Of a stretch of 51,197 nt of DNA, positions 1 to 51,197 are shown one piece after another. Every line of letters starts with the position of its first letter. Position 1 is the first letter of the stretch. Made by a program: the position numbers and the translations under genes. The DNA is from a virus. The notes beneath the pieces are model-generated. The model made no database searches and was not told the DNA's origin. It saw only the letters and a list, made by a program, of their open reading frames with translations. The stretch is taken from IMG/VR virus record IMGVR_UViG_3300005663_000062, positions 1-51,197 of that record; one strand, written 5' to 3'.

Positions 1-434
1 GTTGCAACAAAGTGCGTCCATTGATTTTCGTAAGAAGCCAAACTTGTATTATATAGTCTTCCAATAGAGGCACCTGCGCTGTCGTCATACACACGGAAAT
101 TAATCTTTTTCGGTGTACCGGTATACATATTCCATTCTTGGTTTGACCCAACTTGCCATTTACTTGCCCAAACAAAATATGTAGCAGTGTGCATATAAAC
201 CCAGCTACTAATGCTAAGCGGGGTAAGGGCAGGCGTGAAATCATCGTGGTCGGCAACTTCAATATAATCGCTATTCCCGTCTAAATCAACGCCAGGATAT
301 TTGTAAGTTGCCGTCGCTTGCAATACTCCAGGATGACTATTTAGACTATAGTCAAAGGCCGTTCCTTCCCACAACTTGAGATGTAAGACCTCAGAAGCGT
401 CGGAGACCTCCGGCTGTAAGTGTTTAGGTTTCAT
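1..434 (-). CDS. LamG-domain virion protein, N-terminal part (gene crosses the circular junction)
   Basis: Leftward frame starting ATG at 434 and running off position 1; the rest is 51197-50945. Joined, it is 228 codons. The N-terminal half has the Concanavalin-A/LamG look: a strand followed by DLDGNSDYIEVADHDDFTP, then SISSWVYMHTATYFVWASKW, and a WTHFVA strand at the edge. LamG folds bind carbohydrate or act as adhesion modules, so a receptor-contact role on the tail is likely. The start is set by TAATG overlap with the stop of the upstream gene and by GCGGGG just upstream. It sits between tail tubular A and tail tubular B, where tail accessory proteins are expected. Identity of the fold is confident; its ligand is unknown. 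Confidence 0.85.
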   Translation of the reverse strand, partial: MKPKHLQPEVSDASEVLHLKLWEGTAFDYSLNSHPGVLQATATYKYPGVDLDGNSDYIEVADHDDFTPALTPLSISSWVYMHTATYFVWASKWQVGSNQEWNMYTGTPKKINFRVYDDSAGASIGRLYNTSLASYENQWTHFVA

Positions 435-823
435 TAGATACCCCGCAAAGTTACAACCATATTAGTTACCGCTGTCCCTGACGCTGCTGATATACCCATT
501 ATAACATCTACTGTTCCAGTCACAGGCTCGTTTACACTGAATGGGTAAGTTACGGCCTCCGCCTTCTCGCCGGAATCAAAGATTGTATTATCTCCGTTAT
601 CTTTAATAACGACCTGACCGGTAACATTATTTGTCGTATCAGGGACTTTGAGAATAATCTTTTGCAGAATGCCATTTATCTTTACATTAAGCGTGCCGTC
701 TGCGGTATCGTCAGCGTCCCACAGACCATTAAGGACGATTTCCCATGCAGGAAACCTTTCCGCATCAGATAACCTTTGGTCAAACTTACTTGTTACTGTC
801 ATTGTTGGTGCTGCTGGTGCCAT
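434..823 (-). CDS. Small virion-associated protein, unknown family
   Basis: 129 residues, Thr/Val/Asp rich with alternating beta-strand pattern (for example VTSKFDQRLSDAERFPAWEIVLNGLW near the N-terminus, then TGQVVIKDNGDNTIF). No signal peptide or membrane segment. It lies directly after tail tubular A and is coupled by TAATG to the LamG gene, so it is probably a minor tail or fibre-attachment protein. The family is not recognised. The existence of the gene is well supported by operon packing; the function is inference from position only. Confidence 0.7.
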   Translation of the reverse strand: MAPAAPTMTVTSKFDQRLSDAERFPAWEIVLNGLWDADDTADGTLNVKINGILQKIILKVPDTTNNVTGQVVIKDNGDNTIFDSGEKAEAVTYPFSVNEPVTGTVDVIMGISAASGTAVTNMVVTLRGI

Positions 824-834
824 GATTTAATCTC

Positions 835-1689
835 CTAACTTGTATAGCCGTCGCCTCTGAAATTCGGATTGATTGTTCGTCCTTCGGTAGAGCCTCGTCC
901 GGCATCCACCCAGGATGTTGATACTTCTCTTACATATTTTTTCTGTTCGTCGAGACCTTCGGCTTTCGACATTGCTTTTTCTAATTTCTCTTCAAGCCTC
1001 TCCGTCTTGGCAACACTCTTTGTAATATTGTCCGAGAGTTCCACCGCCAGGGAGAGATAGAGGACTTTTGTAAAGTAAAACGGGAACAGACCCGTATTCG
1101 TTACTAATTTGATATAGTCTATATAGACTGTGATAGATTCCATATTGGTCAGAATGAAACCTTCCTCTTCTTCCCAGTCTGTAATCTCGATACCGCCTAC
1201 ATTCACACTCGTTACTCTCAAAGAATCTTTCGGTATCCTGTATCTGTACCTGAAGTTATTACTTATCCAAAACACCGTCCCCGTAGCGTCGTTAGTTGAA
1301 AAGGCAGTATCAGTCAGGTAGAATTGACTTGGCGAAATCACTACCACACGAAGATAGTCGCCATCAAAGTTGCTCGTATCGTCTATCTCGGCATCGTTTC
1401 CGGTTATAAGAGTATGAGCGGTATCCGTAGTAACCAGCGTCGTATCGGCTACAATACTCGAATAGTCTGAAAAGGCCGCTATCGAAGATGAGTCCCTATT
1501 GATTCCGATACCCGTCTTCCTTGCGAATTTCCATCCTTTTTCCGGGCCTGACGTTAGAAGTTGACCCAGTGTTTCATCGTAAACATTGTCGAGCTTACGC
1601 CGGTTCTCAACATCAGCGTTTATTTTAGCTAATCTGTTCTGTCCGAGTCTCGACAGGGCAAGATTATAGATTCCGAGTTTCGTTGCCAT
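835..1689 (-). CDS. Tail tubular protein A-like (gp11/Gp4-type adaptor)
   Basis: 284 residues. The N-terminus (LGIYNLALSRLGQNRLAKI... VYDETLGQLLTSGPEKGWKFARK) is the typical helical start of T7 gp11 / P22 gp4 type head-completion proteins: helices, a LDNVYDETLGQLL segment and the conserved GW(K/N)F. These form a dodecameric adaptor below the portal. Residues about 73-148 look like a beta-rich insertion (VADTTLVTTDTAHTL... TGTVFWISN) before the fold resumes at YRYRIPKDSLRV. A C-terminal coiled-coil stretch follows (KTERLEEKLEKAMSKAEGL). AGAGG precedes the start. Found two bases downstream of the O-antigen ligase gene, which splits it from the capsid block. Confidence 0.85.
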   Translation of the reverse strand: MATKLGIYNLALSRLGQNRLAKINADVENRRKLDNVYDETLGQLLTSGPEKGWKFARKTGIGINRDSSSIAAFSDYSSIVADTTLVTTDTAHTLITGNDAEIDDTSNFDGDYLRVVVISPSQFYLTDTAFSTNDATGTVFWISNNFRYRYRIPKDSLRVTSVNVGGIEITDWEEEEGFILTNMESITVYIDYIKLVTNTGLFPFYFTKVLYLSLAVELSDNITKSVAKTERLEEKLEKAMSKAEGLDEQKKYVREVSTSWVDAGRGSTEGRTINPNFRGDGYTS

Positions 1690-5535: not shown

Positions 5536-6564
5536 CTAAGTTGTGACAATTGTTTCTGTCGTGTCGATTGCATCCAGTCGTCTCACCGGCATATCGTGGA
5601 ACATTAACTGCGGCTGTCCGAAGGGATTGTTCGGACCCCAGAAGACGTTGACTTTGTCTTTGGCGAGAATCATTAACTGTACGAAAATGGTCTCATTAAC
5701 GTACATGTAAATCGTTCCCGGAGTCCTGTAATTGTAGCGGGTCTCGATAATCTTATCCTCGTCAAGCGTAGCTGCGTCCGTGGTTGAGTTGGTCGAGATA
5801 TTCGCCAGTCTCTTAACAGTTCTCGTATCCTCGATAGCCAGCCCGATGTCCCATGAAAATTCGGTGATATGTGCCCACAACTGCTTGTTGTTAGGCTCGA
5901 AGGACGGGGTATTGGAAGAAGAATCGGACAAGGTGTAGACCAGTCCCATGTCTTCTTTTTTGATACCGCCGCCTGTAGCGTTACGGGGATAGATTAAGTA
6001 AACGCCACCCGCTCGCCACTGGATGAACCAGATAGACGTTAGGGATGCGCCTGTACCTGCCGTAGCACCGTTGTTAGCCACATAAGCCGACCTTGACGTA
6101 CTAAGAGTGTTGTACCTCGCCAAGAGGCCGTCAAACTCTTCAGGAGGCTCCGCTGTCTTATTTCCGGCGACCATAGTATTAGCGAACTCCTGACCCATAG
6201 CCTCGATGTGAGGACGTTCCTGCTGCTGACGGAACTTGGCGGGATTCGGCTGGAGTCTCATAACATCGTCAGGGCATTGATACCTCGCCTTTTGCTGAGC
6301 GATTGTCTCTCTGACCTGATTCAGACGGCCTGCGGTGGCGTTCCAGCCCTCGCCTATCTTCACCCATGAGGGCTTAGGAAGTGCGGTACGCCTTGAGACT
6401 ACGTGTGAGGTAATATCATTAGCACGCTGAACGACAGCGTCCTGAATGAGATCGTTGGTTTCGTTCAATACTTCCGCTACGTCGATGATCTCCTGATTAT
6501 GAGTCATCCTCGCAGCGAGAAGCATGTTTTCTCTTTGGTTAATATCACTACTTGAAATAGCCAT
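5536..6564 (-). CDS. Major capsid protein, BPP-1/GP7-like HK97-fold group
   Basis: 342 residues. Features of the GP7/Bbp17-type capsid family in order: N-terminal AEVLNETNDLIQDAVVQRAN, TALPKPSWVKIGEG, the long linker NPAKFRQQQERPHIEAMGQEFANT, PPEEFDGLLARY, SIWFIQWRAGGVYLIYPRN and HITEFSWDIGLAIEDTRTVKRLANI, then C-terminal YMYVNETIFVQLMILAKDK. It forms the icosahedral shell. Length is normal for the family. GGAGCC precedes ATG 6564. Upstream lies a 116-bp spacer and then a sulfotransferase-like gene, which separates it from its scaffold gene; normally these are adjacent. Confidence 0.88.
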   Translation of the reverse strand: MAISSSDINQRENMLLAARMTHNQEIIDVAEVLNETNDLIQDAVVQRANDITSHVVSRRTALPKPSWVKIGEGWNATAGRLNQVRETIAQQKARYQCPDDVMRLQPNPAKFRQQQERPHIEAMGQEFANTMVAGNKTAEPPEEFDGLLARYNTLSTSRSAYVANNGATAGTGASLTSIWFIQWRAGGVYLIYPRNATGGGIKKEDMGLVYTLSDSSSNTPSFEPNNKQLWAHITEFSWDIGLAIEDTRTVKRLANISTNSTTDAATLDEDKIIETRYNYRTPGTIYMYVNETIFVQLMILAKDKVNVFWGPNNPFGQPQLMFHDMPVRRLDAIDTTETIVTT

Positions 6565-7397: not shown

Positions 7398-8146
7398 TAA
7401 TACACATGCCCCTGAGCCACAAAGAATGCCCTTGCCTTCTTGGATTCGTCATCGTCCCCGTTCCTGTACATACCGGGAGATTTAGGATATTGAGGTTTGT
7501 ATTCAGCTTCCGTTTTATCGCCTTTCTGGTCGCCTTTTACAAAAGTATCAGTTGCAATCCTTTTGGCAAAGCTGAGAAACTCTTTAACGAATACGGGATG
7601 ATTATGCAGTCCGCTGTCAACTAACACCTGCCTGAATTCTTTACTACAATCGTTAGTTACAAACCTGTCGGCCAACTCAAAGTTGACATCATAATCATTT
7701 TTCCATTCGTCCTGTAATGACTTTTTCGCAACCTCCAGAGATTGTATAGATTGCTGAGACAATTCATCAAGCCAATTTCGCATAACAGTTTCCACTGCTA
7801 TCTTCGGCGCGCCTGTATCAAATGCCCATTGTTTAATTTTATTAACCATTTCCTGGTCGATAGGCACATTATCAGGCACTGTTATCTCGTAACCTTCCGG
7901 GGTATCGACACCTCTGATTTTGGCGTAGAAAGCCGAAACCTCTTCTTCGGGAGCGCCTTCGCCGGGTATCTTGATTTTGCCTGATGCCGACTTCTGGAGT
8001 TCACTGTAATCTCTTATCGCATCGTTAGGGTCTTTCCATCCCTGCTGAGTTACCAGTTCGGCATTCTCATCAGAAAACCAAGGGGCTGCTACTGCCGCAC
8101 CCTCTACCGTAGTATCTGTCATTAAACTTGATTCTGGTTCTGGCAT
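7397..8146 (-). CDS. Capsid scaffolding protein
   Basis: 249 residues, acidic N-terminal half and charged helical C-terminus, no cysteine-rich or enzymatic motif. Recognisable podovirus scaffold features: WFSDENAELVTQQGWKDPND (proposed partner-recognition 'GWK/GFK' segment), SELQKSASGKIKIPGE, FYAKIRGVDTPEGYEI, then a helix-rich region with LQDEWKNDYDVNFELADR and a C-terminal end with YPKSPGMYRNGDDDE. It would direct capsid assembly and then exit. ATG 8146 is chosen because AAGGAAG lies at good spacing; an internal ATG at 8122 forms TAATG with the upstream stop but lacks a ribosome site. Confidence 0.8.
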   Translation of the reverse strand: MPEPESSLMTDTTVEGAAVAAPWFSDENAELVTQQGWKDPNDAIRDYSELQKSASGKIKIPGEGAPEEEVSAFYAKIRGVDTPEGYEITVPDNVPIDQEMVNKIKQWAFDTGAPKIAVETVMRNWLDELSQQSIQSLEVAKKSLQDEWKNDYDVNFELADRFVTNDCSKEFRQVLVDSGLHNHPVFVKEFLSFAKRIATDTFVKGDQKGDKTEAEYKPQYPKSPGMYRNGDDDESKKARAFFVAQGHVY

Positions 8147-9546: not shown

Positions 9547-11292
9547 TTACACGCCTACCGCCTCTCCTATCGCCGCCAGAGGCGAGCCTTCGGCTGTTTC
9601 GCCTTGTAACTTCGGTACGCTGTCAGCCATCTGCTGAGCTTCCTGTAAAGCCTGCTGTCTTGCCAACTCCTCTGCCCGTTGCTCTCGTATCTCTTCGACT
9701 TGTGCCGTTGACCTCATACCCTCCTGTGGGAAATCACTCGCATCAAGTAGGGCTTCGCTGAGCCAGTCTTCATCCACTCGGTCAACTATGTTCGGAAACA
9801 GAACTGAAGCCTCTGCAATTTCTCGCAACCCGTTCTTTATTGGCTGTAATATAAAGAGTCTTCTTTGCGCCTGAGCGAGTGGGCCGGTGAAACGGACGCT
9901 GATTTTAGTCCTTTGATTGCCACGCTCCTTTTCCTCTTCGATTCTGTCAACTAATATCTGGGGCGGCTCAGGTAATCTTCCTGCCTTATTTTCAATATCA
10001 GCAACAATATCGAAGTTCTTACTAAGGCCATCTTCTGTGAGTCTATCGACCTGCGGCCCCATTAACTGCGCCTGCTCGGATTTTATCTCTATAATCTCGG
10101 TAGCCGTGGCCTCGCCCTGCCTTCCGATAAAGGCGTTGAAGAACTCCACCCTGTATCCACCGTTGATGAATCTCTCGTAATACTGCTCTCTGTCGAGACC
10201 TACGGGGAAATTACTTCCGGGGTTAATGACCTCTATCTTATCTCCGCCTCTTTCAAAGTAGTTGTTACCGTCAGCGTCCATTCTCACATGACCCCTCTGG
10301 GCTTCAGGGACGTTACGCGCGGGTCTTACCGCTAACTGTGAAGCCTGCAACAGGGTCTTACTGATAGTATTCAACTTTTCAATCGCTACCATGAAGTCCA
10401 TTGCCGGAGAGTAACCGTAGATTTCGTCGCTATTTTTCCTGAATCTCCACACAGCGTAAGGGAATACATCGTAGCCACTCTCTTTAACGATGAGGTCATT
10501 CATGCCGTCACCTACGCCAGCTAAAAGAATCTCCGAAGTCTGGTTGGGATCGTTAAAACCTCCGGTCGAACCTTTGGTCTGGACGTAAACCGACTTGAAC
10601 TTCTTATTAGTTGAAGTGATAGAACCGAACTGAGGTTCATCGTTGGGATAGACCGCATGGATGAATTCGTGTTTCTTCTCAGGATTGGAAATGGCGTTCT
10701 GAGTAATATCGTTAGTCAGTCTGTTCTCGTCGAACATCTGCACAGCCTGTCTTGCGGTTAGGAAGAACTTCCTGAAAAGGACATCGACGTTCTGAAACTT
10801 ATTCTCGGCAATAAAAACTTCTCTCAGGTGGATAGGTATGTGGACTGTCGTACCGCCTTTAATATCCTCCTCGACGTACATCGTAGCCGTTCCAATCGAA
10901 CCTGCATCGTTAAACCATTCATTCAATACAGAGTAGAAGTTCGACCTGTCGTAAGCGGCGTACATCGCCTCGTCGTATTCCTGTAAGAATATTCTCACCT
11001 CGTCAATATCGTTCAGGGTATGGTCGCTCATCTCAGACTTGAACCATCTGAGAGACTTCGATACCATGAAGCCCTGCATCCCATCCCGCCATATCCCCAA
11101 AGCACTCGCAGGGGTCGGGTCGAATATCGCCTTACCTCTCTTCTGACCCTTCTTATCGTTTCTCGAAGAGTCTCGTATCAGTTCCCTTCTGGGATTGGTA
11201 AACGAAGCCGCCTGCTGGATAAGAGGCTCGTAGTCCCGCTTGACCTCTTCAAGTTGTTTCTGTCTCAGTAAGATTTGTCCCTGACCGCTCAT
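9547..11292 (-). CDS. Portal protein (head-tail connector family)
   Basis: 581 residues, the usual length for the T7 gp8-like head-tail connector family. Motifs in order: KRDYEPLIQQAASFTNPRRELI, PTPASALGIWRDGMQGFMVSKSLRWF, LNEWFNDAGSIGTATMYVEED, then YPNDEPQFG, YPFAVWRF-type segment FPYAVWRFRKNSDEIYGYSP, RPARNVPEAQRG, and GRQGEATATEI. Twelve copies form the genome gate. The C-terminal 60 residues are Glu/Gln-rich coiled coil. Start ATG 11292 overlaps the upstream stop by 4 nt. Confidence 0.92.
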   Translation of the reverse strand: MSGQGQILLRQKQLEEVKRDYEPLIQQAASFTNPRRELIRDSSRNDKKGQKRGKAIFDPTPASALGIWRDGMQGFMVSKSLRWFKSEMSDHTLNDIDEVRIFLQEYDEAMYAAYDRSNFYSVLNEWFNDAGSIGTATMYVEEDIKGGTTVHIPIHLREVFIAENKFQNVDVLFRKFFLTARQAVQMFDENRLTNDITQNAISNPEKKHEFIHAVYPNDEPQFGSITSTNKKFKSVYVQTKGSTGGFNDPNQTSEILLAGVGDGMNDLIVKESGYDVFPYAVWRFRKNSDEIYGYSPAMDFMVAIEKLNTISKTLLQASQLAVRPARNVPEAQRGHVRMDADGNNYFERGGDKIEVINPGSNFPVGLDREQYYERFINGGYRVEFFNAFIGRQGEATATEIIEIKSEQAQLMGPQVDRLTEDGLSKNFDIVADIENKAGRLPEPPQILVDRIEEEKERGNQRTKISVRFTGPLAQAQRRLFILQPIKNGLREIAEASVLFPNIVDRVDEDWLSEALLDASDFPQEGMRSTAQVEEIREQRAEELARQQALQEAQQMADSVPKLQGETAEGSPLAAIGEAVGV

Positions 11293-12430: not shown

Positions 12431-12648
12431 TAGTCTTTCTCCTTAAATTCACCACACCAGTCATCTGGCCATACCGCGCTATGTTCTTTCGCCATTTCTG
12501 TCTCTGGATTTTTATCATTTGAATTGTGATGCGTAGGGGGGTAACGATGACAGAATCCATAGTCACAGGTGTCAGCGTTATGCACGCCTTCTTTTTCATA
12601 AGTCCACGATGAATACCACTGAAAATATTTACAATCTTTACATTTCAT
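12430..12648 (-). CDS. Small Cys-pair protein (CxxCxYF...WCGEF type)
   Basis: 72 residues. MKCKDCKYFQW, DTCDYGFCHRYPP and a final DDWCGEFKEKD make a small zinc-binding pattern seen in many phage and clostridial mini-proteins. ATGA overlap with the terL stop. Function unknown. Confidence 0.65.
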   Translation of the reverse strand: MKCKDCKYFQWYSSWTYEKEGVHNADTCDYGFCHRYPPTHHNSNDKNPETEMAKEHSAVWPDDWCGEFKEKD

Positions 12649-14180
12649 ACCGTTATCGGATTCCAGTCTCCTGATTCTCCTTCATTTACAGCATCCATGA
12701 AATACGGCAAGTAAGTCTTCGATACCCCGATAGGCCTGCCGTCAATATACAAGTGCCAGCGGTATGCCCTCGCCAAATGCCTGACGGCATCGGCTACGTG
12801 GCACGTCCAGTCCTTGACCGGATCACGATGGTATGCGGGTTTATCGTCCGTACTCAACTGTTCATTCTTCTTCTTTCTATATTTCTTCAATGCCGTTACT
12901 AAATCACGGCATTTAAGCTTATTTATTCTTAATTTTGTAAATATGCCCCTTACTTCCTCAATACCGTCATTAAATCCATGCTTCTCGACACAGTGCATAT
13001 CGTAACCAAGCTCTGCAAAACTGTCTCTTACCGTCTTACCGCCCCGCTTGCGGTTACTTCCAGTGTCGGGGTCTAAGTCCCAACCCGCCCAGTGAGCCTG
13101 ACGGGGAGCATAATTGTAAGGCTTCGTATCCATCATCTTCGCATAACCCGATACGCCAATACCGTCGTTATCGTAATAAAAGTCTATTACGCGCACTGTA
13201 CTCTGGATAAACTGGACAAATAATATAGCCGTATAAATATCGCCGTAGTCACCGAAAGTATAGACGGGCATATGCTCATCATGTGGGTAATCGCCTATAT
13301 GCTTTTCGCCCTTCAGAGCCGCCATTCTATCACCGTAAAACGTGCCTTCGAGGTAAGTTGGGAACTCGCCCAGGACTCTAATCCTGAAAATGTTACTGTC
13401 CTCGCCGTGCTCGGCAGCCATATCTTCATAGTATGTTCGTCCGGCTACGGACTGGATAATATCCTTACCCTCTTTGTAGTTGGGCGTGTCCTTAACGCTT
13501 ACGTTTATTACATTCCATCTACTCTCCGGCTGGCATATCTTGTAAAAATAACCTGTCGGGTCTGTCGGGTTACCTATCGCTAAAAAATGACAATTACTGT
13601 TTATCATTAACCCCTGCGTCGCCGCATTCCAAATCGGACGAATAATACCACAGGCTTCGTCGAAAATTATCAACACCCATTTGTTATGGTATCCCTGCAT
13701 CTTCGTGGCCTGCTCGGTGGCGGTATCGGGAGAGGTAGCGAAACCGAGAGCAAAGTTTAGTTCCCACTGGCCTCTCTCTTCAGGCGGTAAACCTTTGAGG
13801 ATGGAAGGTGATGGCTTGCAGTCCCACGTTAAAGTAGTCATCTTGCCGCCTAAAGGTATCTTAGACCCTGAATACGCAGAGTGTATCTCTTTCCATAACT
13901 GGTTTTTTACTAAAGTGTCAGAGGGGGCGGTGGTAATCACGGTAGAAGGCTGAAAGCATGTCTTAAACCATACAGCTATTCTCGCCGCTCCATAAGTCTT
14001 GGAAACGCTGTGACAGGCGGGAACAGCGGTGTACATATTGTCACGTACACTATTCGCTATTTCTTCCATCTTGGGCCAGAAATCCTTTACGCCCAGACAA
14101 TTTTCTATAAAACCGCGAGGGTCGCGTTGATAACCCCGCATCTTCTCTGCTATTAACTTGTGAGAATTAGTTACTTTCAT
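12645..14180 (-). CDS. terL: Terminase large subunit
   Basis: 511 residues. ATPase part: a deviant Walker A, VPACHSVSKTYGAAR near residue 50 (Ser where Gly is usual before the Lys), WVLIIFDEACG as Walker B, and NCHFLAIGNPTDPTGYF as the coupling/motif III region. Nuclease part: VYTFGDYGDIYTA with acidic residue, then FYYDNDGIGVSGYAKMMD and HVADAVRHLARAYR near the C-terminus. It packages DNA into procapsids through the portal. ATG 14180 chosen for length and TTGAG upstream. An intrinsic terminator ends only 17 nt upstream, separating it from the preceding genes. Confidence 0.92.
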   Translation of the reverse strand: MKVTNSHKLIAEKMRGYQRDPRGFIENCLGVKDFWPKMEEIANSVRDNMYTAVPACHSVSKTYGAARIAVWFKTCFQPSTVITTAPSDTLVKNQLWKEIHSAYSGSKIPLGGKMTTLTWDCKPSPSILKGLPPEERGQWELNFALGFATSPDTATEQATKMQGYHNKWVLIIFDEACGIIRPIWNAATQGLMINSNCHFLAIGNPTDPTGYFYKICQPESRWNVINVSVKDTPNYKEGKDIIQSVAGRTYYEDMAAEHGEDSNIFRIRVLGEFPTYLEGTFYGDRMAALKGEKHIGDYPHDEHMPVYTFGDYGDIYTAILFVQFIQSTVRVIDFYYDNDGIGVSGYAKMMDTKPYNYAPRQAHWAGWDLDPDTGSNRKRGGKTVRDSFAELGYDMHCVEKHGFNDGIEEVRGIFTKLRINKLKCRDLVTALKKYRKKKNEQLSTDDKPAYHRDPVKDWTCHVADAVRHLARAYRWHLYIDGRPIGVSKTYLPYFMDAVNEGESGDWNPITV

Positions 14181-14196
14181 AATTTTCTCAAGGCAC

Positions 14197-14237
14197 AAAA
14201 AAAGAACCGCATAGGTGTATAGCCCTATACGGCTCTT
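14197..14237 (-). terminator. Strong intrinsic terminator just before terL
   Basis: On the minus strand a 13-bp stem (14236-14224 with 14215-14203; two G-U pairs, no mismatch) encloses an 8-nt loop and runs directly into seven Us (plus-strand A run 14197-14203). The two wobble pairs become A-C mismatches on the other strand, so it is meant to act on leftward RNA. Transcripts from upstream should stop here before terL unless antiterminated. Confidence 0.85.
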
Positions 14238-20023: not shown

Positions 20024-20115
20024 CGAGCGGAGCTTTGTATATCGTCGCTCTGTTACAGTTATAAGAAAAAAGACAGGCCATCCGAGTTTCTGATATACAA
20101 AGCGGGTGACCTGTC
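20024..20115 (-). ncRNA. Interlocked-helix (pseudoknot-like) leader element with terminator-type hairpin
   Basis: Helix b is 12 perfect bp (20032-20043 with 20092-20103). Helix a (20025-20029 with 20046-20050) and helix c (20072-20077 with 20110-20115) each interleave with b, in the order a b a' c b' c'. On the minus strand helix c is followed by six Us (20071-20066), like a long-loop terminator. It lies just downstream of the leftward promoter, so it would be at the 5' end of leftward RNA, where cis-acting antitermination or attenuation elements sit. Confidence 0.5.
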
Positions 20116-20150
20116 ATTATATCTTTTATCATATTACTCCATCATTCTGT

Positions 20151-20180
20151 AATATGTTCGTTTTCGACGCCGTGTGTCAA
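20151..20180 (-). promoter_or_regulatory. Leftward promoter
   Basis: Minus strand TTGACA at 20180-20175, 18-nt spacer, CATATT at 20156-20151. The -35 is consensus, the -10 matches four of six. RNA would start near 20144. Confidence 0.5.
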
Positions 20181-20204
20181 TTCGACAGCCTGCTTATTCG
20201 ACGC
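20163..20204 (+). repeat. Three TTCGAC repeats
   Basis: TTCGACGC 20163-20170, TTCGACAG 20181-20188, TTCGACGC 20197-20204, spaced 18 and 16 bp. They surround the -35 of the leftward promoter and may be an operator. Confidence 0.45.
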
Positions 20205-20223
20205 AGTCACGACGATAAAACCT

Positions 20224-20253
20224 ATTATAAATCACAAACGCGCAATAAAGCAA
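20224..20253 (-). promoter_or_regulatory. Second possible leftward promoter
   Basis: Minus strand perfect TATAAT (20229-20224) with a poor -35 TTGCTT at 20253-20248, spacer 18. Confidence 0.35.
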
Positions 20254-20356
20254 ATGTATTCTAAAATAATCTCTTATTTTCTTATAAATATACTCCTTGA
20301 TATTGAGCCAATAACAGCGATATTGATACAAAATATTAACTTGACGAATAATTTTC

Positions 20357-20385
20357 TTTACAAGTGAGTAAATATTGACGATAAT
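20357..20385 (+). promoter_or_regulatory. Rightward promoter of the plus-strand island
   Basis: TTTACA 20357-20362, 17-nt spacer, GATAAT 20380-20385: five of six matches in both boxes. Start expected near 20392, and the TCGACCAAA motif (20399-20407) follows at once, a natural operator position. Confidence 0.65.
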
Positions 20386-20398
20386 ACTTTTATGTTAA

Positions 20399-20407
20399 TC
20401 GACCAAA
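20399..20407 (+). promoter_or_regulatory. TCGACCAAA motif, copy in leader of first rightward gene
   Basis: Within TTAATCGACCAAATTAA, 26 nt before ATG 20434. Other copies: 20018-20026 (minus), 20694-20702 (plus), 21240-21248 (minus). Confidence 0.55.
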
Positions 20408-20433
20408 TTAATCACTTATGAAGGGAATTGAAA

Positions 20434-20646
20434 ATGTACTACCACGTCAAAACCAATTACGACCAGTTAAAACCAAACGACAGATTTACTGTAAGATACG
20501 ATAACAAGCTTATGACTTGGCAGGAATACCTTGAAGCCAAAAGGCACGGACTTTGCAAGGTGCTTTCTGATATGTGGGCAGCAAATCAACACGATAGCAA
20601 AGTATCGTTTACCCTTAACTATCCTGTCTGGAAATGGCAGGCTTAA
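20434..20646 (+). CDS. Small protein, first gene of the rightward island
   Basis: 70 residues. ATG 20434 chosen for AAGGGA at 7 nt; a TTG two codons upstream is too close to it. Sequence MYYHVKTNYDQLKPNDRFTV ... MTWQEYLEAKRHG shows a small alpha/beta protein without known motif. Probably early-expressed given its promoter. Confidence 0.65.
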   Translation: MYYHVKTNYDQLKPNDRFTVRYDNKLMTWQEYLEAKRHGLCKVLSDMWAANQHDSKVSFTLNYPVWKWQA

Positions 20647-24556: not shown

Positions 24557-25240
24557 TTACTCCTTTTCCATACATATTACATCTTCCCAGTCGATTTTCG
24601 GTGAGCCTTTGGCCTCGGCCAGTCTGCATTTAACTGTCCTTTTTCTGCCCGGATTTTTTGGCCTGTGGTCAACGTTAGATTTCAGTAGTGGCCTATGCGG
24701 GCAATAACCGTAAAAGCCAAGTGCTATGTTGCAATTCAAACACAAACAACGATATTTATCTTTTGGAAACCCCTGTTTTTTGATGTCTTGATATATCTTT
24801 CGGCCTTTACCGCATCTCGCTCTATGCTCAGCACCATCGCCGTTTATGTGGTCAATAGTCAAGAACTCAATATGCTTCTCTCCGCAACATTCACACTTAC
24901 TACCATAAGCAGACATCACTTCTTTTTTTAAGGCTTTATCCTTCTCTTTAAGTCTTTTGATAATATCTATCTTGTTTCGTTTGTAATAACTTAAAGCTTG
25001 CCCTCTGATTTTGTCAGCATTTTTCCGATAATGCAAAGCATCTTTATCTTTCTTCGTCCTCAATACACCATCTCCGCCATTGGCTAAAGATAAAACTTTG
25101 CGCCGCCCATGCCCCGCACAAAAGGTGCTGCAAAAATAATGGCCTGTCTTTGTGGTCTTTTTTCGGTTACTGGCATAATCTATTACGAGTACGCCACAAT
25201 GACCACATTTGAACTTTATTCTTTTGGCTTTTGTGTGCAT
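24557..25240 (-). CDS. HNH endonuclease with methyltransferase-like tail
   Basis: About 227 residues. N-terminal zinc ribbon (CGHCGVLVI ... CSTFCAGHG), a Lys-rich linker, then a typical phage HNH: CECCGEKHIEFLTIDHINGD, HRARCGKGRKIYQDIKKQGF, YRCLCLNCNIALG. The last 22 residues, RLAEAKGSPKIDWEDVICME.., copy the end of the adjacent methyltransferase (RLAESKGSPPINWEMVICTQ). ATG 25240 lies inside the methyltransferase 3' end (25-nt overlap) with GGGAAA upstream. Fits a homing gene that invaded the end of its neighbour. Confidence 0.8.
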   Translation of the reverse strand: MHTKAKRIKFKCGHCGVLVIDYASNRKKTTKTGHYFCSTFCAGHGRRKVLSLANGGDGVLRTKKDKDALHYRKNADKIRGQALSYYKRNKIDIIKRLKEKDKALKKEVMSAYGSKCECCGEKHIEFLTIDHINGDGAEHRARCGKGRKIYQDIKKQGFPKDKYRCLCLNCNIALGFYGYCPHRPLLKSNVDHRPKNPGRKRTVKCRLAEAKGSPKIDWEDVICMEKE

Positions 25241-26370
25241 ATTACCATTTCCCAATTTATCGGTGGACTACCCTTGCTTTCAGCCAATCTTCTAAAAAAA
25301 CTGGCCCGTTTTGTTATTTTTACTATATCTCCACCAAATAAGGAATGCTTTTTTTCTATTTTTATTAACATTGCTTTATGTTTACAGACAGTCTTAAATC
25401 CTATGCTATGACATAACTTTTCCCAATCACCCTCAAAATCTACAATCTTTTTATTCCTTACGAAATTCTTAACAACCCAGATAGCATGACCTCCCGGCTT
25501 TAGTATCTTGTGGCACTGCTCAAGTATCTCTTTAGCGGCTTGCCAGAAGGTGGGGCCTTTAACTTCACCTAACTGGCCTTCTGTTTCACCGTAATGTTTT
25601 GACTTGCCCCCCGTTAAGTCTTTTCCAGATTGCCAATTAGATTCATTTCTTTGTACGCCCGATGCTATTACTGCGCTTCCTTCATACGGCGGGCTCGACA
25701 CCACTAAGTCCACGTCCCCGGCCTTGAGATTGCCGAGATTGCCTTTGGTCTGGCCATAACTTTGCTTGCGAGGCTTACTATCGTGTATCTGTTGGCGCTT
25801 TGCTGGCGTATCTCCAACAGCGCCAATATTTACATTATTCTCTATAAATGGTGGACTTGAGATGACCATATCCACCTTACCGGGCTTCATTGCGCCGAGT
25901 TGGCCGGGGGTCTGGCCGTAATCGTCCTTTTGAGTTTTGCTGAGTTTTTCAAATTCTATTTGTGCAGGTGGTTGCCTTACCGAGAACGGCGGACTCGAAA
26001 TAATAAGCTCTACTGATTCTTCCACTACTTCGCACAGTTTCCGGGAATCGCCCTGAATAATCACAGGATAAGGACAGCCGAACTCTTCAAAGCCCCTGCG
26101 GTGAAGCTCGAAGTTCTGCTTGGCTAATTCCACGAATTTCTGCTCAAGCTCTACGCATATCACCTGATAGCCGTCATAAGCCCCCAGAATGCCCGTAGAG
26201 CCGATTCCTCCGAACGGGTCAACTATTACACCGCCCCACCCCTCGTCCTTACAGTGGTCGAGGATACGCTTTAAGAGGCCATAACTCATCTTCGCCGGAT
26301 GCTGAAAACTTTCCGGTGCGATGTGGTCTTTCCAGCTATCGTTGTAGCAGTTTATCCAACTATTTTCCAT
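25216..26370 (-). CDS. DNA methyltransferase with three SPP(F/Y) motifs
   Basis: 384 residues. SAM motif I DPFGGIGSTG at 51-60 after a motif-X-like HPAKMSYGLLKRIL, acidic partner CVELEQKFVELAKQ, then three copies of the catalytic motif IV signature: SSPPF 125-129, SSPPF 171-175, SSPPY 225-229. Each copy is followed by a YGQTxGQLG module (151-159, 205-213, 260-268). The C-terminus has HKILKPGGHAIWVV and the closing RLAESKGSPPINWEMVI strand. SPPY-type motifs mark amino-MTases acting on DNA (N4-cytosine or N6-adenine). The repeated catalytic module is unusual. May protect phage DNA from restriction. Confidence 0.85.
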   Translation of the reverse strand: MENSWINCYNDSWKDHIAPESFQHPAKMSYGLLKRILDHCKDEGWGGVIVDPFGGIGSTGILGAYDGYQVICVELEQKFVELAKQNFELHRRGFEEFGCPYPVIIQGDSRKLCEVVEESVELIISSPPFSVRQPPAQIEFEKLSKTQKDDYGQTPGQLGAMKPGKVDMVISSPPFIENNVNIGAVGDTPAKRQQIHDSKPRKQSYGQTKGNLGNLKAGDVDLVVSSPPYEGSAVIASGVQRNESNWQSGKDLTGGKSKHYGETEGQLGEVKGPTFWQAAKEILEQCHKILKPGGHAIWVVKNFVRNKKIVDFEGDWEKLCHSIGFKTVCKHKAMLIKIEKKHSLFGGDIVKITKRASFFRRLAESKGSPPINWEMVICTQKPKE

Positions 26371-36948: not shown

Positions 36949-37785
36949 TTAGCATCCCTCCCTTCTTCTTCTTAATATTGGTATTCCTGTTGGCGGTGCT
37001 GCGGCCTCAAACCCACCTAACAGCATCCTGTTCGGGTCTTTGAACATTATGAGCGGCTCTCGGAAGAGTGAAACAATTTCAGATTGGGTGAGAACCCGGT
37101 TGTACGCAGAAAATATCTCAAGACCAGCATTTAAAAAGAGGTCATTTCCATTTCTTCGACCAATAGAAAGACCAGTAACACTATCGGTAAAAGGAGTATC
37201 TGTTCCTGATTGCAATACACCGTTTAGATATGCTTTTCCTGTTGAGCCGGATACCCCGGCATAAGTGTATACAAAGTTATAAAGTACACCCGCTGATAAT
37301 GCCGTAGAACTTGCACGACTATCACCCCAGGTAGCACCTCCGGTAAAAACCCCCGCCTTTATCTCCCCATCATTTACTAAACTCAACGTAGTTCTACTTA
37401 CGGCAGCTGTTATAGTATTTGCAAATATTTGTTGTTGGGCAGCAACCGTATCAGCTATAAACCAGAACGAAAGTGAGAAATCGTTACCAGCAGCAATTTC
37501 AGGAATGGCAGAAGCAAAAGAGATATATTCATTAGTTCCGGGTAAATCTACTGCGCTTCCAAGTTGTCCAACCCGCCACGAAGGAGCAGTACCCTGAAGA
37601 GTTCCCGTCTTGCCGTTGCCGCTCAAATCAGTAATGATATTGCCTGCGGAAGCATTCATCAGCCAGAAGCAGATGAGACCTTGAGTTGACCAGTGGCGAC
37701 GGTCTATGCCGTACCGTTGGGTGTATTCAAACGGAAACTTCTCGTTTGGATTGTATATTCGAGTATTTGGTACTATTATGCTCAT
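36949..37785 (-). CDS. LamG-domain virion protein
   Basis: 278 residues. LamG/ConA-like domain at about 35-250: GLICFWLMNASAGNIITDLS, GTNEYISFA, DFSLSFWFIADTVAAQQQIF, YNFVYTYAGVSGSTGKAYLN GV, LSIGRRNGNDLFLNAGLEIF and closing NRVLTQSEIVSLF. The first 30 residues form an attachment part. Coupled by TAATG-type overlap to the upstream gene. One of three LamG virion genes here. Confidence 0.8.
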   Translation of the reverse strand: MSIIVPNTRIYNPNEKFPFEYTQRYGIDRRHWSTQGLICFWLMNASAGNIITDLSGNGKTGTLQGTAPSWRVGQLGSAVDLPGTNEYISFASAIPEIAAGNDFSLSFWFIADTVAAQQQIFANTITAAVSRTTLSLVNDGEIKAGVFTGGATWGDSRASSTALSAGVLYNFVYTYAGVSGSTGKAYLNGVLQSGTDTPFTDSVTGLSIGRRNGNDLFLNAGLEIFSAYNRVLTQSEIVSLFREPLIMFKDPNRMLLGGFEAAAPPTGIPILRRRREGC

Positions 37786-38633: not shown

Positions 38634-38885
38634 TTACTCCGTAATTCCGCCTATCAAAAGGCGCGTTCCTGTTATAGTTCCTGTTACATCAAGCTCTGAT
38701 GTAGGGCTTGAGTTGTTTATTCCTAACCTTTTAGTTAAATCTCTCCATACTAATTCTGATTCTTTCGTAGGGAACCAAGCCAGTAAGTCGTTGTCCCAAT
38801 ACAATAAAACACCGTCAGTACCAATTACTTCAGTATCACCTCTGAAAACTTTTACCCCAACCGGACTATATCTGTCTCTATACAT
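38634..38885 (-). CDS. Small fibre-type protein with GIN..PTSELDVTG motif
   Basis: 83 residues; ATG 38885 overlaps the upstream stop (TAATG) and has GGAG at 7 nt. The end LGINNSSPTSELDVTGTITG is the typical start of phage tailspike or chaperone-type fibre domains (iGt..Pt.kLdV.Gt), yet the gene stops there. A truncated fibre or a base piece. Confidence 0.6.
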   Translation of the reverse strand: MYRDRYSPVGVKVFRGDTEVIGTDGVLLYWDNDLLAWFPTKESELVWRDLTKRLGINNSSPTSELDVTGTITGTRLLIGGITE

Positions 38886-39475
38886 TACCAAACTCCATAC
38901 CACACTGCCACGTTTCCCGCTTCGGTTCCAGTTGAGCCGTCAGCATCGGTTATTTCTACTTTCCAAAAACGATATCCGGCGTCATCGAGCCATACACTTG
39001 CCACTGACTCGAATTTGCCTACGTCGGTCGCTTCTACTTCTTTAGGCCAGTTCTCGTCTGTGACTACGAGCGTATTGGCCCAGAACTTATTCGTAGCGGC
39101 CACCGGAGCGCTGTCATTGAAGCCAGGGACGGTAGGATACGTTATAACGGCCTGAGTACCCAATATGGCCGTTCCCACGGCTGCGAGGCGTGCTGGCCCC
39201 TTTATTCGCCATGCTAAGATACGATAACCAAAAGTCTTATTAGCCGCACTGCCACCGGTGAACATGAACTCGATACCATTAGCTTTCATCTGGCCGGTCG
39301 TATCCTCTTCGGTACCTTCCGGTCGGTGCAGGTCTATGACACCTATGCCCGTAGTGCCAAGTATTGCCGGGCGGTTCGGATAGTCGCCTTTCGTAGCCAG
39401 GTCGAGCAGTGCAGCGTCTTCGTTAGCCTCATTTCTGGCTATTCTTAAATTTTGGGATAAGGTTGTAAGGAACAT
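38885..39475 (-). CDS. Virion protein, unknown
   Basis: 196 residues. Strand-rich (IEFMFTGGSAANKTFGYRIL AWRIKGPARLAAVGTAIL; VASVWLDDAGYRFWKVEITD). Directly after the 1629-residue gene, so likely a tail or fibre-attachment protein. No family recognised. Confidence 0.6.
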   Translation of the reverse strand: MFLTTLSQNLRIARNEANEDAALLDLATKGDYPNRPAILGTTGIGVIDLHRPEGTEEDTTGQMKANGIEFMFTGGSAANKTFGYRILAWRIKGPARLAAVGTAILGTQAVITYPTVPGFNDSAPVAATNKFWANTLVVTDENWPKEVEATDVGKFESVASVWLDDAGYRFWKVEITDADGSTGTEAGNVAVWYGVW

Positions 39476-46011: not shown

Positions 46012-46518
46012 TTATGTTTCCTTTAACTGTTGTCCTGCAAGTCCGGCAGCGCCTATGCCTGAAGCAGCTATTCCACCTGCCGTCAATAAACTGCCTCGCC
46101 TGATATTCCTGCCTCTCGCCCTTGCCGACTTTCCTGCAAATCTCGCCGCAAAAGCCTGAGACTCAGCGAATTCACCGCGCAGAAAGCCTTGCTTCAATAT
46201 CGCTAATCTATCTGCTTCAAGTTCCTGCGCGGTTTCTTCGAGTAATAACGCGGGTGTTCCGGTAGCAAGAACGCCGCCCCTTGCTATCGCCACTCTCTGT
46301 GTGCCTTTGAACGCCTTGGCTTCTCTACCGAACTTTCTTGCCTCATCCTGGGCGGCGGCGCGAACCTCTTCGGCCTCTTTAATCTTCTGAGCGGCGTTGA
46401 AGTTTAGTATGTCCTGCTCGGACTTCGATTGAGCTTCGGCGGCGCGGCCTTGCTGGACTGCACCAACGGTTCCTGCTACAGCGCCTACGATAAGGGCTAT
46501 TTCAACTCCAGTGGCCAT
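46012..46518 (-). CDS. Internal virion protein (gp14-like)
   Basis: 168 residues from ATG 46518. MATGVEIALIVGAVAGTVGA VQQGRAAEAQSKSEQD: Gly/Ala membrane-active start, then a long Ala/Glu/Arg helix with RVAIARGGVLATGTPALLLE, the classic gp14-type centre, and a Gly/Ala end. gp14 inserts into the outer membrane during ejection. The open frame extends to 46584, but the family start fits 46518. Confidence 0.75.
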   Translation of the reverse strand: MATGVEIALIVGAVAGTVGAVQQGRAAEAQSKSEQDILNFNAAQKIKEAEEVRAAAQDEARKFGREAKAFKGTQRVAIARGGVLATGTPALLLEETAQELEADRLAILKQGFLRGEFAESQAFAARFAGKSARARGRNIRRGSLLTAGGIAASGIGAAGLAGQQLKET

Positions 46519-46549
46519 ATACAATCTTTGTGCTTCACATAGTATTAAA

Positions 46550-47005
46550 TCAAACATTATATATCTTTCCGTACATAATCGCATCTACGCCATCACTTGT
46601 ATAAGCTTTAGCCAATCCTTCTACTTTGAAACCGAGATGAGCAAATAACGTATGGCACTCAGGAAAGTCCACTCTACCATACGACTGTAAGCGACGAATC
46701 TTGTGGTCTTTAATCAATTTCTTCAATCCTTTACGGATACACTTGTAACTCTCTTTTACATGATTATCTATAAATGGCGTAATCATCAACCATACATCGC
46801 CTACGCCCTCCCACATAATATCAATACCCGCTACACATTCAGGCTGGCCATCTATCCAGCCAGTTACGCACATACCGGATTCTTCACGCTCTTTGGCTGC
46901 TTTGTATGTTTCTTCATTAGTATCAAATCGCAAATTACGCTCTTTTAATCCATGAGTCATAACCCACAGCATATCTTCAGCTTTCATTGGTCTTACATCT
47001 ATCAT
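46550..47005 (-). CDS. GNAT-like protein in gp13 position
   Basis: 151 residues. IDVRPMKAEDMLWVMTHGLK, MCVTGWIDGQPECVAGIDIM WEGVGDVWLMITPF, LKKLIKDHKIRRLQSYGRVD and CHTLFAHLGFKVEG follow the GNAT order, but the acetyl-CoA loop (R/QxxGxG/A) is not clear. T7 gp13 and many podovirus homologues have this fold and act in virion assembly. Placed as in T7, between tail-tube B and gp14. Confidence 0.7.
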   Translation of the reverse strand: MIDVRPMKAEDMLWVMTHGLKERNLRFDTNEETYKAAKEREESGMCVTGWIDGQPECVAGIDIMWEGVGDVWLMITPFIDNHVKESYKCIRKGLKKLIKDHKIRRLQSYGRVDFPECHTLFAHLGFKVEGLAKAYTSDGVDAIMYGKIYNV

Positions 47006-47266: not shown

Positions 47267-50200
47267 TTAATCTGGCTCCACTTGAACGTCTAAGGACAAC
47301 GCTAATACTGTCATTGGTACAGGGTCGGTCTGTCTTACAATGACAGTGCCGCTCTTGTCATACTCGCCTTCAAAGTCCATTTCTATATCGTCGGTAGTCA
47401 ATGGGAATTCGGCGGAACTCTCACCCGCCTTACGGTAAACTATCGGATTAAGGTTATCTGTAGAACTGCCCCATTCGCCACGCATCGTCTTAAAGAGACT
47501 CAAGACCCCTTCAAGTATATGATAGGTAGCCGAACGGCCTTGATTCTCTATATTCAGTTTCATTGGCTTTAGTGTAGAAGTGTATCCGAGTCCTATCTGT
47601 ACCGTAGAGGCTGTAGTCGTTACTCCATTTAGTTTCAAAGTTATATCGCCACTGCCATCTACTACCGCTTCATCGAATACCACACCATCGGCATAAACCT
47701 GAACAGTCTCGGCTATGAGATGGTCTAATCCTGTCGTTATCGAGGAAGTTGCTGTAGAGTCGTAAGTAAAGCCCGAATCGACAAAGAAAGCGTCATCCTC
47801 GTCTGCACCCCAATTCCTCGGTTTGAACCTTTCCACGTATCTAACTGTACCGCTATTTATAGTTCTTTTGACTGTTACCCAGACCTCATCTTCGCTTCTC
47901 TCACCACCGTATATCACCGCTACGGACTCGAAAGACGAATCGGCATCACCGTCAACAGTAACAAGACGACTCCATGCGAATACCTTTTGCTCGCGTTCGT
48001 AAGACATTATCGCCATCTGGCCGTCGTTTCTCACACACCACAGAATCGGATCGGGAGTTCTCTGGTATGCCATATCCACTACGCCGTCAGTCTTAGCCTC
48101 GCCCATGATATGCTCTGCGAATACTGTCAGGTCGTCGGCTTTGTAAGAATCGGAATTGAAATCAAACAGTAGTTCCCGTATCTTCTTACCGCCTCGCTCT
48201 GCAAAGAGTACAGCCTGATTTATCATTATCGCCGCTACATCCTCAGAGCCTTTAGTAGTCTGGAGTCTCGCGCGAACGTTCGTAGGTGTAAGAGCTTCAT
48301 CTACCTTAGATGCACCGAGTAAGTGCGCACCGCCTACCGTTCCTATGACAAGTGCTTCTCTGGGTATAACCCACCGTATCCGGTTCTGTTGGCCTGTGCC
48401 TACTAATGTGAAGATGATGGAAGAGTTGTCGTCAGTACCACCTGAATAGTCCGTAAAATCGCCGGAAGCACTGCCCCATGTAGTTAAAGGCCCAGACACA
48501 CTACCTACGAAAGTCAGTCTTTCCTCTGCGCTTATCGTAACGTCGATAGGCCATCCTCTGAAGTTACTGAAACTTCCTTCTGAGAAGCGATGAGTTTTAT
48601 CTGTTGAGCCGAGAGTCTTGAGTACTATTGCGGTTGCACTTTGCGGAGTAGCTACTTGTATTATTTCAACTATTCCTACATGAGAGGTGTCCCTCACAGA
48701 TATTTGAATACTTGCATCTCCAGTACCATCGCCGTTAGTCACTCTCGCTCGATAAGTTGCATCTGCAAACTCTTCCGTACCTGAAGTTACAATGTTCTTA
48801 TTTGCCAAACTTGTTACAGTAACTATTGTTTCTTTGGTTGTGAAGGAGTCGTAACTTCTCTCTAAAACGATAGTTGAAGGGCCACCTGTTCCCCATGTCC
48901 CATTAGTTGTAAAATCCCAGGTAATTCCTTTTGGAACTGCAAGTGCAGTAGTAGCAGCATCAACTGTTGTGGAATCAATCGTTTCTCCTATACTTGGCGT
49001 ACCCGTAGCATGAACAAGTTTGAATAATGCTCCGGTTTGTGATTTAGATGTAGCAGAATTACCGCTTGGCCTATGTCCTGCCGTTGTCCCTAATACGAAT
49101 GGCGAATGACCAACTGCTGTTAAGGTAACTTGACCAACTAAAGCAGAAGACGTTATTGTCTTTGCGGTATCATCGTTTTCATCACGAAATGGCCCCGTTG
49201 TAATATCTGATTCCTCCAGAAACCATGCAGAATCATCAAATCTTGATAATCTTCTCTGTTCATAAGAGGGATGAGTAATGAATAAAACATCTGCTGATGT
49301 CTCAAATTTTAACGTAGGTATATCAGCAGTAAGATAAGGAGTGGTTATGCTATAAGCAGTAGTAGAATCAACTCCTTTCAATGCCGCTATTTCCGCAGGC
49401 GTCAGTTCTTTATTAAAAATCGCTATATTATCTACATCGCCAACCCATTTATCTGCAAATGCCACTCCTACTGCACCTATTAAAACATCAGCACCTAAAT
49501 TTTCCATTGCAGTGTAGTTTGCTATAGTTGCGATACTGGTAGGTATTAAAGACCAATCTACGTAAAATTTTATATCGTCCTGACGAAACTCTGATGCAGC
49601 GCCTGTACCACCCGCCCCATTATATGTAACGACTATAAAATGCCAACCATCTGATATAGAAGTCCCCGAAAAGACAGTGTAGCTCCCGCCGGTACTCTCA
49701 TCGAAAAGAGTCATCCTCAGTGTGTCATCATTGAATATTTGCAATTTCCATTCAGAATTTATCCCTTGGTCATCTTTTGCTATAATAGTCTGCCTTCCAC
49801 CATCAGTTTCGTACCGCACCCATATAGCAATAGTAAATGGAGAATCATTCGTGCCATCTCCAAAAGAAAAGTCATCATGGTCTGTAACCGTAATATATGC
49901 TGCATCACCTAAATCAAGGGCCGTATTCGCATTACCAGCAGCATCAGTAGTAGTTAATGTATCTGTATTTGCCGAAGCGGCACCGTTATGAGTTGCCCCG
50001 TCAGCATCAACTACAACTGTATCACTGAGATTATCATCACATTTCCAATGAGCGACAATAAACGAGGATAATGCACTCAAATCTTCTGTACCAAAAGGCT
50101 TGAAAACAGGCGATGGACTTGCCCCTCCTGTAAAGAACTGCAATCTCTGATTCTCAAATAATAAGATATAGGTATCGTCAACTGAATGCTCGAATCCTAC

Positions 50201-50404
50201 GACTCTGCCCTTTGCCGAATTTGACTTCTGGGTGGCAACGTATTCGAGGCCGGGACGTCTTTCCACTGCTCCATAAATTGTTGCGATAAAATTTTCGAGA
50301 GTTCTGCATCCAAACGCATATTTTTCCTGCTCTATCCTACTATCCATCTTGCTTGACAATTCACCGGCATTGAAGGATACGATGTTTTTTGAGATTTTTG
50401 CCAT
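47267..50404 (-). CDS. Tail tubular protein B-like, with inserted LamG domain
   Basis: 1045 residues from ATG 50404 (a TTG at 50425 is also open; GGGAG lies 12 nt before ATG). The start SFNAGELSSKMDSRIEQEKY AFGCRTLENFIATIYGAVER RPG is the hallmark of podovirus tail nozzle/tube B proteins. Residues about 105-345 are a full LamG domain (VAHWKCDDNLSDTVV; FTIAIWVRYETDGGRQTI; WHFIVVTYNGAGG; IAIFNKELTPAEIAAL) placed inside it, after which the tube protein resumes (SAEERLTFVGSVSGPLTTWG; EYDKSGTVIVRQTDPVPM at the end). Likely forms the nozzle and carries a sugar-binding module. Confidence 0.85.
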   Translation of the reverse strand: MAKISKNIVSFNAGELSSKMDSRIEQEKYAFGCRTLENFIATIYGAVERRPGLEYVATQKSNSAKGRVVGFEHSVDDTYILLFENQRLQFFTGGASPSPVFKPFGTEDLSALSSFIVAHWKCDDNLSDTVVVDADGATHNGAASANTDTLTTTDAAGNANTALDLGDAAYITVTDHDDFSFGDGTNDSPFTIAIWVRYETDGGRQTIIAKDDQGINSEWKLQIFNDDTLRMTLFDESTGGSYTVFSGTSISDGWHFIVVTYNGAGGTGAASEFRQDDIKFYVDWSLIPTSIATIANYTAMENLGADVLIGAVGVAFADKWVGDVDNIAIFNKELTPAEIAALKGVDSTTAYSITTPYLTADIPTLKFETSADVLFITHPSYEQRRLSRFDDSAWFLEESDITTGPFRDENDDTAKTITSSALVGQVTLTAVGHSPFVLGTTAGHRPSGNSATSKSQTGALFKLVHATGTPSIGETIDSTTVDAATTALAVPKGITWDFTTNGTWGTGGPSTIVLERSYDSFTTKETIVTVTSLANKNIVTSGTEEFADATYRARVTNGDGTGDASIQISVRDTSHVGIVEIIQVATPQSATAIVLKTLGSTDKTHRFSEGSFSNFRGWPIDVTISAEERLTFVGSVSGPLTTWGSASGDFTDYSGGTDDNSSIIFTLVGTGQQNRIRWVIPREALVIGTVGGAHLLGASKVDEALTPTNVRARLQTTKGSEDVAAIMINQAVLFAERGGKKIRELLFDFNSDSYKADDLTVFAEHIMGEAKTDGVVDMAYQRTPDPILWCVRNDGQMAIMSYEREQKVFAWSRLVTVDGDADSSFESVAVIYGGERSEDEVWVTVKRTINSGTVRYVERFKPRNWGADEDDAFFVDSGFTYDSTATSSITTGLDHLIAETVQVYADGVVFDEAVVDGSGDITLKLNGVTTTASTVQIGLGYTSTLKPMKLNIENQGRSATYHILEGVLSLFKTMRGEWGSSTDNLNPIVYRKAGESSAEFPLTTDDIEMDFEGEYDKSGTVIVRQTDPVPMTVLALSLDVQVEPD

Positions 50405-50446
50405 TTTTAGGTTGAACTCCCACAAAGAAGAGGTATAGTATGTTTA

Positions 50447-50541: not shown

Positions 50542-50559
50542 AATTTTATGGAGTTTGTT

Positions 50560-50925
50560 ATGCCTAAAGGTGTTTACGTAAGAATGAAACATCAGTCCGC
50601 AGAAACTCGCAGAAAAAGAGGATTGAAAGTTAGTGGCGAAAACAATGGAAATTGGAAAGGTGGCCGATACAGCGCTCGTGGATACATTCGCGTTCTTTGC
50701 CCAATCCATCCATTTTCTAAGGCTGATGGATATATCTACGAGCATCATCTTGTAATGGAAGAACAACTTGGTCGCTATCTTACGCCAAAAGAAGTTGTTC
50801 ACCACATCAATAATATACATGATGATAATCGTCCTGAAAATCTCAAATTGTTTTCTACAACTGCTAACCATACAAAACACCATCACACATTAGGTACATT
50901 TGATATGTTAAAAAAGCATTTATGA
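50560..50925 (+). CDS. Free-standing HNH homing-type endonuclease
   Basis: 121 residues from ATG 50560 (GGAG at 6 nt). NUMOD3-like start HQSAETRRKRGLKVSGENNG NWKGGR, then GYIRVLCPIHPF, YEHHLVMEEQLGRYLTPKEV VHHINNIHDDNRPENLKLF: an HNH_3-type catalytic part (HH, N, H). Read rightward against all surrounding tail genes, in the gap between the LamG gene and tail-tube B. Such genes spread by cutting phage genomes lacking them. Confidence 0.8.
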   Translation: MPKGVYVRMKHQSAETRRKRGLKVSGENNGNWKGGRYSARGYIRVLCPIHPFSKADGYIYEHHLVMEEQLGRYLTPKEVVHHINNIHDDNRPENLKLFSTTANHTKHHHTLGTFDMLKKHL

Positions 50926-50944: not shown

Positions 50945-51197
50945 TTACACTCCATACCGCCACCTCGTTTGTTCGTAGAAGTCTTTAACTTGAGCAGCAG
51001 TCCTCGCTGTAGTATAGATACGGACATCATCTATCTGGCCGTTGGCATATTTTGTGTCGTATCTACCTATGTAAACTGGTGCGGTGAGGTTTTCTACTGC
51101 TACAAACAAACCAGGATTGCTTTCGCTATCAGCATCATCAACTCGCAAACCATTCAGATATATTTTAATTCCAGAACTTAAAGTACCTCCATCATAA
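50945..51197 (-). CDS. LamG-domain virion protein, C-terminal part (joins 1-434)
   Basis: The frame enters at 51197 without a start and ends at TAA/TAG-type stop 50945. With the two bases left over at position 1 it reads T-YDGG, then SSGIKIYLNGLRVDDAD, VYIGRYDTKYANGQIDDVRI YTTARTAAQVKDFY, the second half of a LamG domain. Together with 434-1 it makes 687 nt = 228 residues plus stop. This shows that the window is a circular sequence opened within this gene. Confidence 0.85.
   Translation of the reverse strand, partial: YDGGTLSSGIKIYLNGLRVDDADSESNPGLFVAVENLTAPVYIGRYDTKYANGQIDDVRIYTTARTAAQVKDFYEQTRWRYGV

Follow-up and report, generated by a model that had tools for sequence, protein, structure and literature searches.

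A LamG tail gene divided between the ends of an uncultured podovirus record supports a closed 51,197-base map

The window analyzed here, 51,197 bases of DNA, is the whole of virus record IMGVR_UViG_3300005663_000062 and very probably represents the genome of an uncultured podovirus (a phage with a short tail) of the HTVC010P/Uetakevirus type as a complete, closed map, in which base 1 follows base 51197. One LamG (lectin-fold) tail gene runs across that point: the pieces at the left and right ends are its two halves, and joining them also closes the gene order. A record without end repeats thus becomes a closed genome in which the end gene is annotated once and none goes missing at the ends. 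Closure also gives meaning to statements about functions that this virus lacks. The result is useful for annotation, and the biology is ordinary apart from a possible exchange of lectin cores among phages.

One LamG gene at both ends of the record

The 5′ part of the LamG gene occupies positions 1 to 434 on the minus strand and holds codons 1-144 and the first two bases of codon 145. Its frame starts at an ATG at 434, is called as an open reading frame of 144 amino acids (434..3) and is still open at base 1. The 3′ part, at 50945..51197 on the same strand, completes codon 145 with one base and carries codons 146-228 and the stop; the minus-strand frame entering at 51196 reads YDGGTLSSGIKIYLNG... 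and stops at 50945. Codon 145 is composed of bases 2, 1 and 51197 (ACT, Thr), and the joined gene is 687 nt long, encoding 228 amino acids plus the stop. The joined protein matches Laminin_G_3 (PF13385) along its full length (positions 1-151 of 151) at 78.9 bits, above the curated cut-off of 27.6 bits. The right half alone reaches only positions 92-151 (39 bits), and the left half alone matched no family at an E value of 0.001. The original prediction of a LamG gene spanning the ends was therefore right in its coordinates, phase and 228-residue total, and the full domain appears only once the halves are joined.

As proof of closure, the agreement of phase and total length on which that prediction had relied is weak: almost all of the genes, which are long, share one strand, and of 20,000 random cut pairs in the record 1,860 (9%) are stop-free for at least 144 + 83 amino acids. 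Among the relatives, a 24,024-bp contig (G004; L037/L038) provides a counter-example: its ends also join in frame, within a homologue of the tail tubular protein B gene (tail B). Compared with tail B, the joined protein of this contig aligns at residues 6-57 and then at 182-270 and 256-1052; the join there is incomplete, with a stretch missing. The contig has a terminase small subunit directly before the start of tail B and no match to the portal, capsid or tail A of the 51,197-base record; candidate readings are a deletion form, a defective prophage or a misassembly. Two recombinase-like ORFs were also seen in it, and the one tested is a Pfam integrase. Because of this contig, an in-frame join of ends needs a homology test, and the lesson for method is that in-frame read-through is weak evidence, whereas gap-free homology across the join together with gene order is strong.

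Such homology was found in related viral contigs. Scans in which each half was used separately both retrieved L002, and the closed record aligns to L002 DNA over 450 columns (83.6% identity) with no gap at the join, 265 bases lying before it and 184 after. Positions 265-1 correspond to L002 4600-4864 and positions 51196-51013 to L002 4866-5043, the single base between them being 51197. A second contig, L003, aligns to the closed record over 287 columns at 89% with 0 gaps and extends 12 bases past the join, where the contig stops; a third, L004, starts 29 bases beyond the join, on the other side from L003.

In relatives the homologue is undivided. The L002 gene (4422-5147) is one open frame of 241 codons, 64% identical in amino acids over joined residues 16-219. 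In the distant relative G011 (IMGVR_UViG_3300005253_000043; 49,035 bp, a similar size), one frame of 194 codons (10199-10783) covers joined residues 1-227, with 52% amino acid identity to residues 1-63 and 59% to residues 179-227 (last 49 amino acids). The closest relative found, G005 (IMGVR_UViG_3300037628_000127; capsid 89% and portal 76% identical in amino acids), has a 199-codon frame in the same place (20030-20629), of which the C-terminal part matches. All three homologues score above the Laminin_G_3 cut-off, two by a narrow margin (28.7 and 27.8 versus 27.6 bits). The case named in advance as contrary to closure, homologues whose two halves belong to different genes, was checked and the opposite was seen: single genes in L002, G011 and G005. 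Gap-free homology at the join and these single-gene homologues together show that the two ends are one gene. No contigs leaving either end into other sequence were found, nor was a near-identical contig crossing the join; the exact 37-base junction word and 30-base left-end word had 0 matches in viral_contigs, and the exact 30-base right-end word had 0 in genome_contigs, negatives of little weight because these collections may lack near-identical records.

Gene order and recognizable functions

On the minus strand the record carries a probable terminase large subunit (12645..14198), whose residues 283-476 match HTVC010P at 1593-2138, inside a gene annotated as terminase large subunit; a portal or head-to-tail connector (9547..11292; PF12236, phrog_332); a protease-like gene (7397-8146; family match); the major head protein (5536..6564; phrog_212); a tail tubular protein A-like gene (tail A, 835..1689; phrog_394); and a small gene upstream of the LamG gene (434..823) that occupies the same place in G005 (78% amino acid identity) and G011 (39%). 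Across the join, the same strand holds the tail tubular protein B-like gene (47267..50425; phrog_376), into which a Laminin_G_3 domain is inserted at residues 174-347, and an internal virion protein-like gene (46012..46584; phrog_418). Between the LamG gene and tail B, on the opposite strand, lies an HNH_3 endonuclease gene (50548..50925, plus), likely a free-standing homing endonuclease. A further LamG domain lies in a separate gene at 36949-37785, probably in the tail fibre region. The best matches of a DNA methyltransferase-like gene at 25216-26370 are short and split, and this gene may be rearranged or fused.

Once closed, the record reads tail A, small gene, LamG gene, opposite-strand HNH gene, tail B; read as a line, it has tail A and tail B at opposite ends. 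Among 11 related contigs searched, all five that hold both genes have tail A before tail B on the same strand. Likewise, in 13 of 13 phage records common to two match lists (25 listed of 213 and 25 listed of 175), the portal gene precedes tail B by 3.2-4.4 kb on the same strand; one phage appears twice among the 13, under separate accessions. In the closed record the end of the portal gene and tail B are 10,318 bases apart, compared with 9,863 in G005 and 9,876 in G011.

The original prediction also held that functions absent from the record are truly absent. Closure upholds this for missing sequence only; for functions, 'not recognizable' is the fitting term, because in the region from about 14 to 35 kb the majority of genes have no match to a functionally characterized family. 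The annotated genes in the corresponding half of HTVC010P are also mostly hypothetical. DNA_pol_A, integrase and DnaB_C had no match in the record or in G011, while the controls matched and the same search method found the portal in both genomes. The phage-type RNA polymerase family (PF00940) had no match in the record, but the controls were unmatched as well, which makes this negative uninformative about absence; a search of the record for tRNA found none. Chen et al. describe HTVC010P-related genomes without integrase (PMC6811365).

Closure, virion topology and alternative readings

Of the earlier description of the record as a complete circular or circularly permuted genome, the closed map stands on the gap-free homology and the gene order, and the topology of the virion DNA does not follow from it: a closed map alone fits circularly permuted, terminally redundant or cohesive-ended linear DNA equally. 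The map probably derives from phage DNA that was concatemeric or terminally redundant and was assembled into a ring, any overlap of the ends being trimmed. No exact terminal repeats, direct or inverted, were found at the record ends, and this counts against the closed reading. CheckV's published end-repeat criterion asks for a direct repeat of 20 bp or more at the ends (PMC8116208). The record has no direct repeat of that length, though an end overlap may have been trimmed; the usual software would for this reason not call it complete, which does not speak against closure as such. Continuity of the ends, which a closed map requires, was found in the gap-free homology at the join and in the single-gene homologues.

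Alternatively, the record could be a linear fragment whose ends lie in separate LamG genes with extra sequence between them. The genome does contain at least three LamG domains (including that at tail B residues 174-347 and that in the gene at 36949-37785), lacks a terminal repeat, and is one in which random in-frame joins are common. A fragment of this kind is nonetheless highly improbable, since two related contigs cross the join at base level without a gap, a single G011 gene matches both of the clade-specific portions of the gene, its start and its end, and a linear reading would reverse the order of tail A and tail B and separate them by about 46 kb. It is also conceivable that the LamG gene was stitched together from two phages through a nearly identical LamG stretch; the 90-100% DNA identity of the LamG core to the otherwise unlike phage L002 is what such a chimera would predict, but both ends of the gene and both flanking tail genes are of one lineage (that of G005 and G011), so that only the core could have been exchanged, and we regard a chimeric join as extremely improbable.

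The ends might instead be the physical termini, cohesive or blunt, of a linear virion DNA, with the cut in the LamG gene marking the packaging site. The record, L003 and L004 each end no more than about 30 bases from a common point, as this would lead one to expect, but both L003 and L004 are short and neither matches the record elsewhere in DNA. G011, moreover, opens in its portal gene (residues 34-580 at its start and 6-73 at its end), which makes a physical genome end at the cut unlikely. It would also be unusual for a packaging site to lie inside a structural gene at a distance from the terminase, which likewise counts against physical termini here; the chance that they explain the cut is slight in the extreme. 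The closed map is thus the reading we retain.

The position of the cut probably reflects assembly instead. Compared with L002 DNA in 30-base steps, the joined gene has an identity of 0.90-1.00 at nt 241-480 and of 0.33-0.67 outside nt 121-600, and the join, at nt 434/435, falls inside the stretch of 0.90-1.00 identity. A LamG stretch common to unlike phages in nearly identical form would break assembly graphs at this point, and this is the likely reason that several contigs end here.

Lectin core, endonucleases and related phages

The 228-residue LamG (concanavalin-like) product is, from its sequence and setting, most likely a virion decoration protein or a receptor-binding tail protein. Its domain, the position of the gene between the tail-tube genes, its conserved ends and its exchangeable core together suggest a sugar-binding tail role; such a virion protein would bind surface sugars. 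The core has probably been exchanged recently with L002, as suggested by the 90-100% DNA identity that drops on both sides. Outside the LamG gene, blastn found no match of the record to L002, L003 or L004, and the tail B proteins of L002 and the record are only about 30% identical.

A broader possibility, which we put forward tentatively and consider rather unlikely, is that unlike podoviruses exchange LamG cores at the site between tail A and tail B, with the adjoining HNH-family endonucleases as the driver. The endonuclease would cut phages without it and co-convert the neighboring lectin gene. Consistent with exchange are the contrast in L002 between the nearly identical core and the divergent tail B, and the comparison with G011, in which the start and end of the gene are conserved and the core is swapped. 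An endonuclease gene lies near the lectin gene in three of the five examined loci that have the latter: the 51,197-base record, G011 and L004 (L003, truncated at the gene, was left out, and G010 was counted with G011). These endonucleases, in the interval from tail A to tail B, are of three Pfam types, HNH_3, Endonuclease_7 and HNH, at 50548-50925 (+) in the record, 9736-10197 in L032 and 776-1453 in L004, where one gene separates the endonuclease from the lectin gene. The G005 and L002 loci have no endonuclease near the lectin gene. In phage T4, free-standing homing endonucleases are described as cutting at sites hundreds or thousands of bases away from the gene that encodes them and co-converting the flanks (PMC2988022). 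The endonucleases beside the lectin gene fit this kind and are candidate homing endonucleases. Literature searches found no report of a phage LamG tail fiber together with a homing endonuclease, and among the papers listed none dealt with LamG or concanavalin domains in connection with tail tubular proteins.

The two nearest comparisons reproduce the closed arrangement. G005, an incomplete contig of 32,044 bp with no end repeat, is contiguous from tail A through the small gene and the 199-amino-acid LamG-type gene to tail B; its LamG core is unlike that of the record, and the interval from its LamG-type gene to tail B contains no endonuclease ORF. G011 is closed by the usual end-repeat criterion, a 121-bp suffix being identical to its prefix, and shares with the closed record the order portal, protease-like gene, capsid, tail A, homologue of 434-823, LamG gene and tail B. 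It differs in its portal (49% amino acid identity), its capsid (61%) and its LamG core, in an endonuclease VII-type gene upstream of the lectin gene, and in having a homologue of the gene at 38885-39475 between the lectin gene and tail B. This last gene has moved: its homologue stands just before tail B in G008, G009, G010 and G011, and it follows a 1,629-amino-acid gene in the 51,197-base record and in G005.

Among known phages, the record shares with the HTVC010P/Uetakevirus type a PF12236 portal, a capsid, tail tube genes A then B, and their order, the type being one of morphogenesis and not a taxon assignment; its portal is about 31% identical in amino acids to that of HTVC010P. Pelagibacter phage HTVC010P (NC_020481) and Enterobacter phage Tyrion (NC_031077, Uetakevirus) are smaller, at 34.9 and 41.8 kb, and in both tail B follows tail A directly with no gene between, while the order of terminase, portal, capsid, tail A and tail B is the same as that found here.
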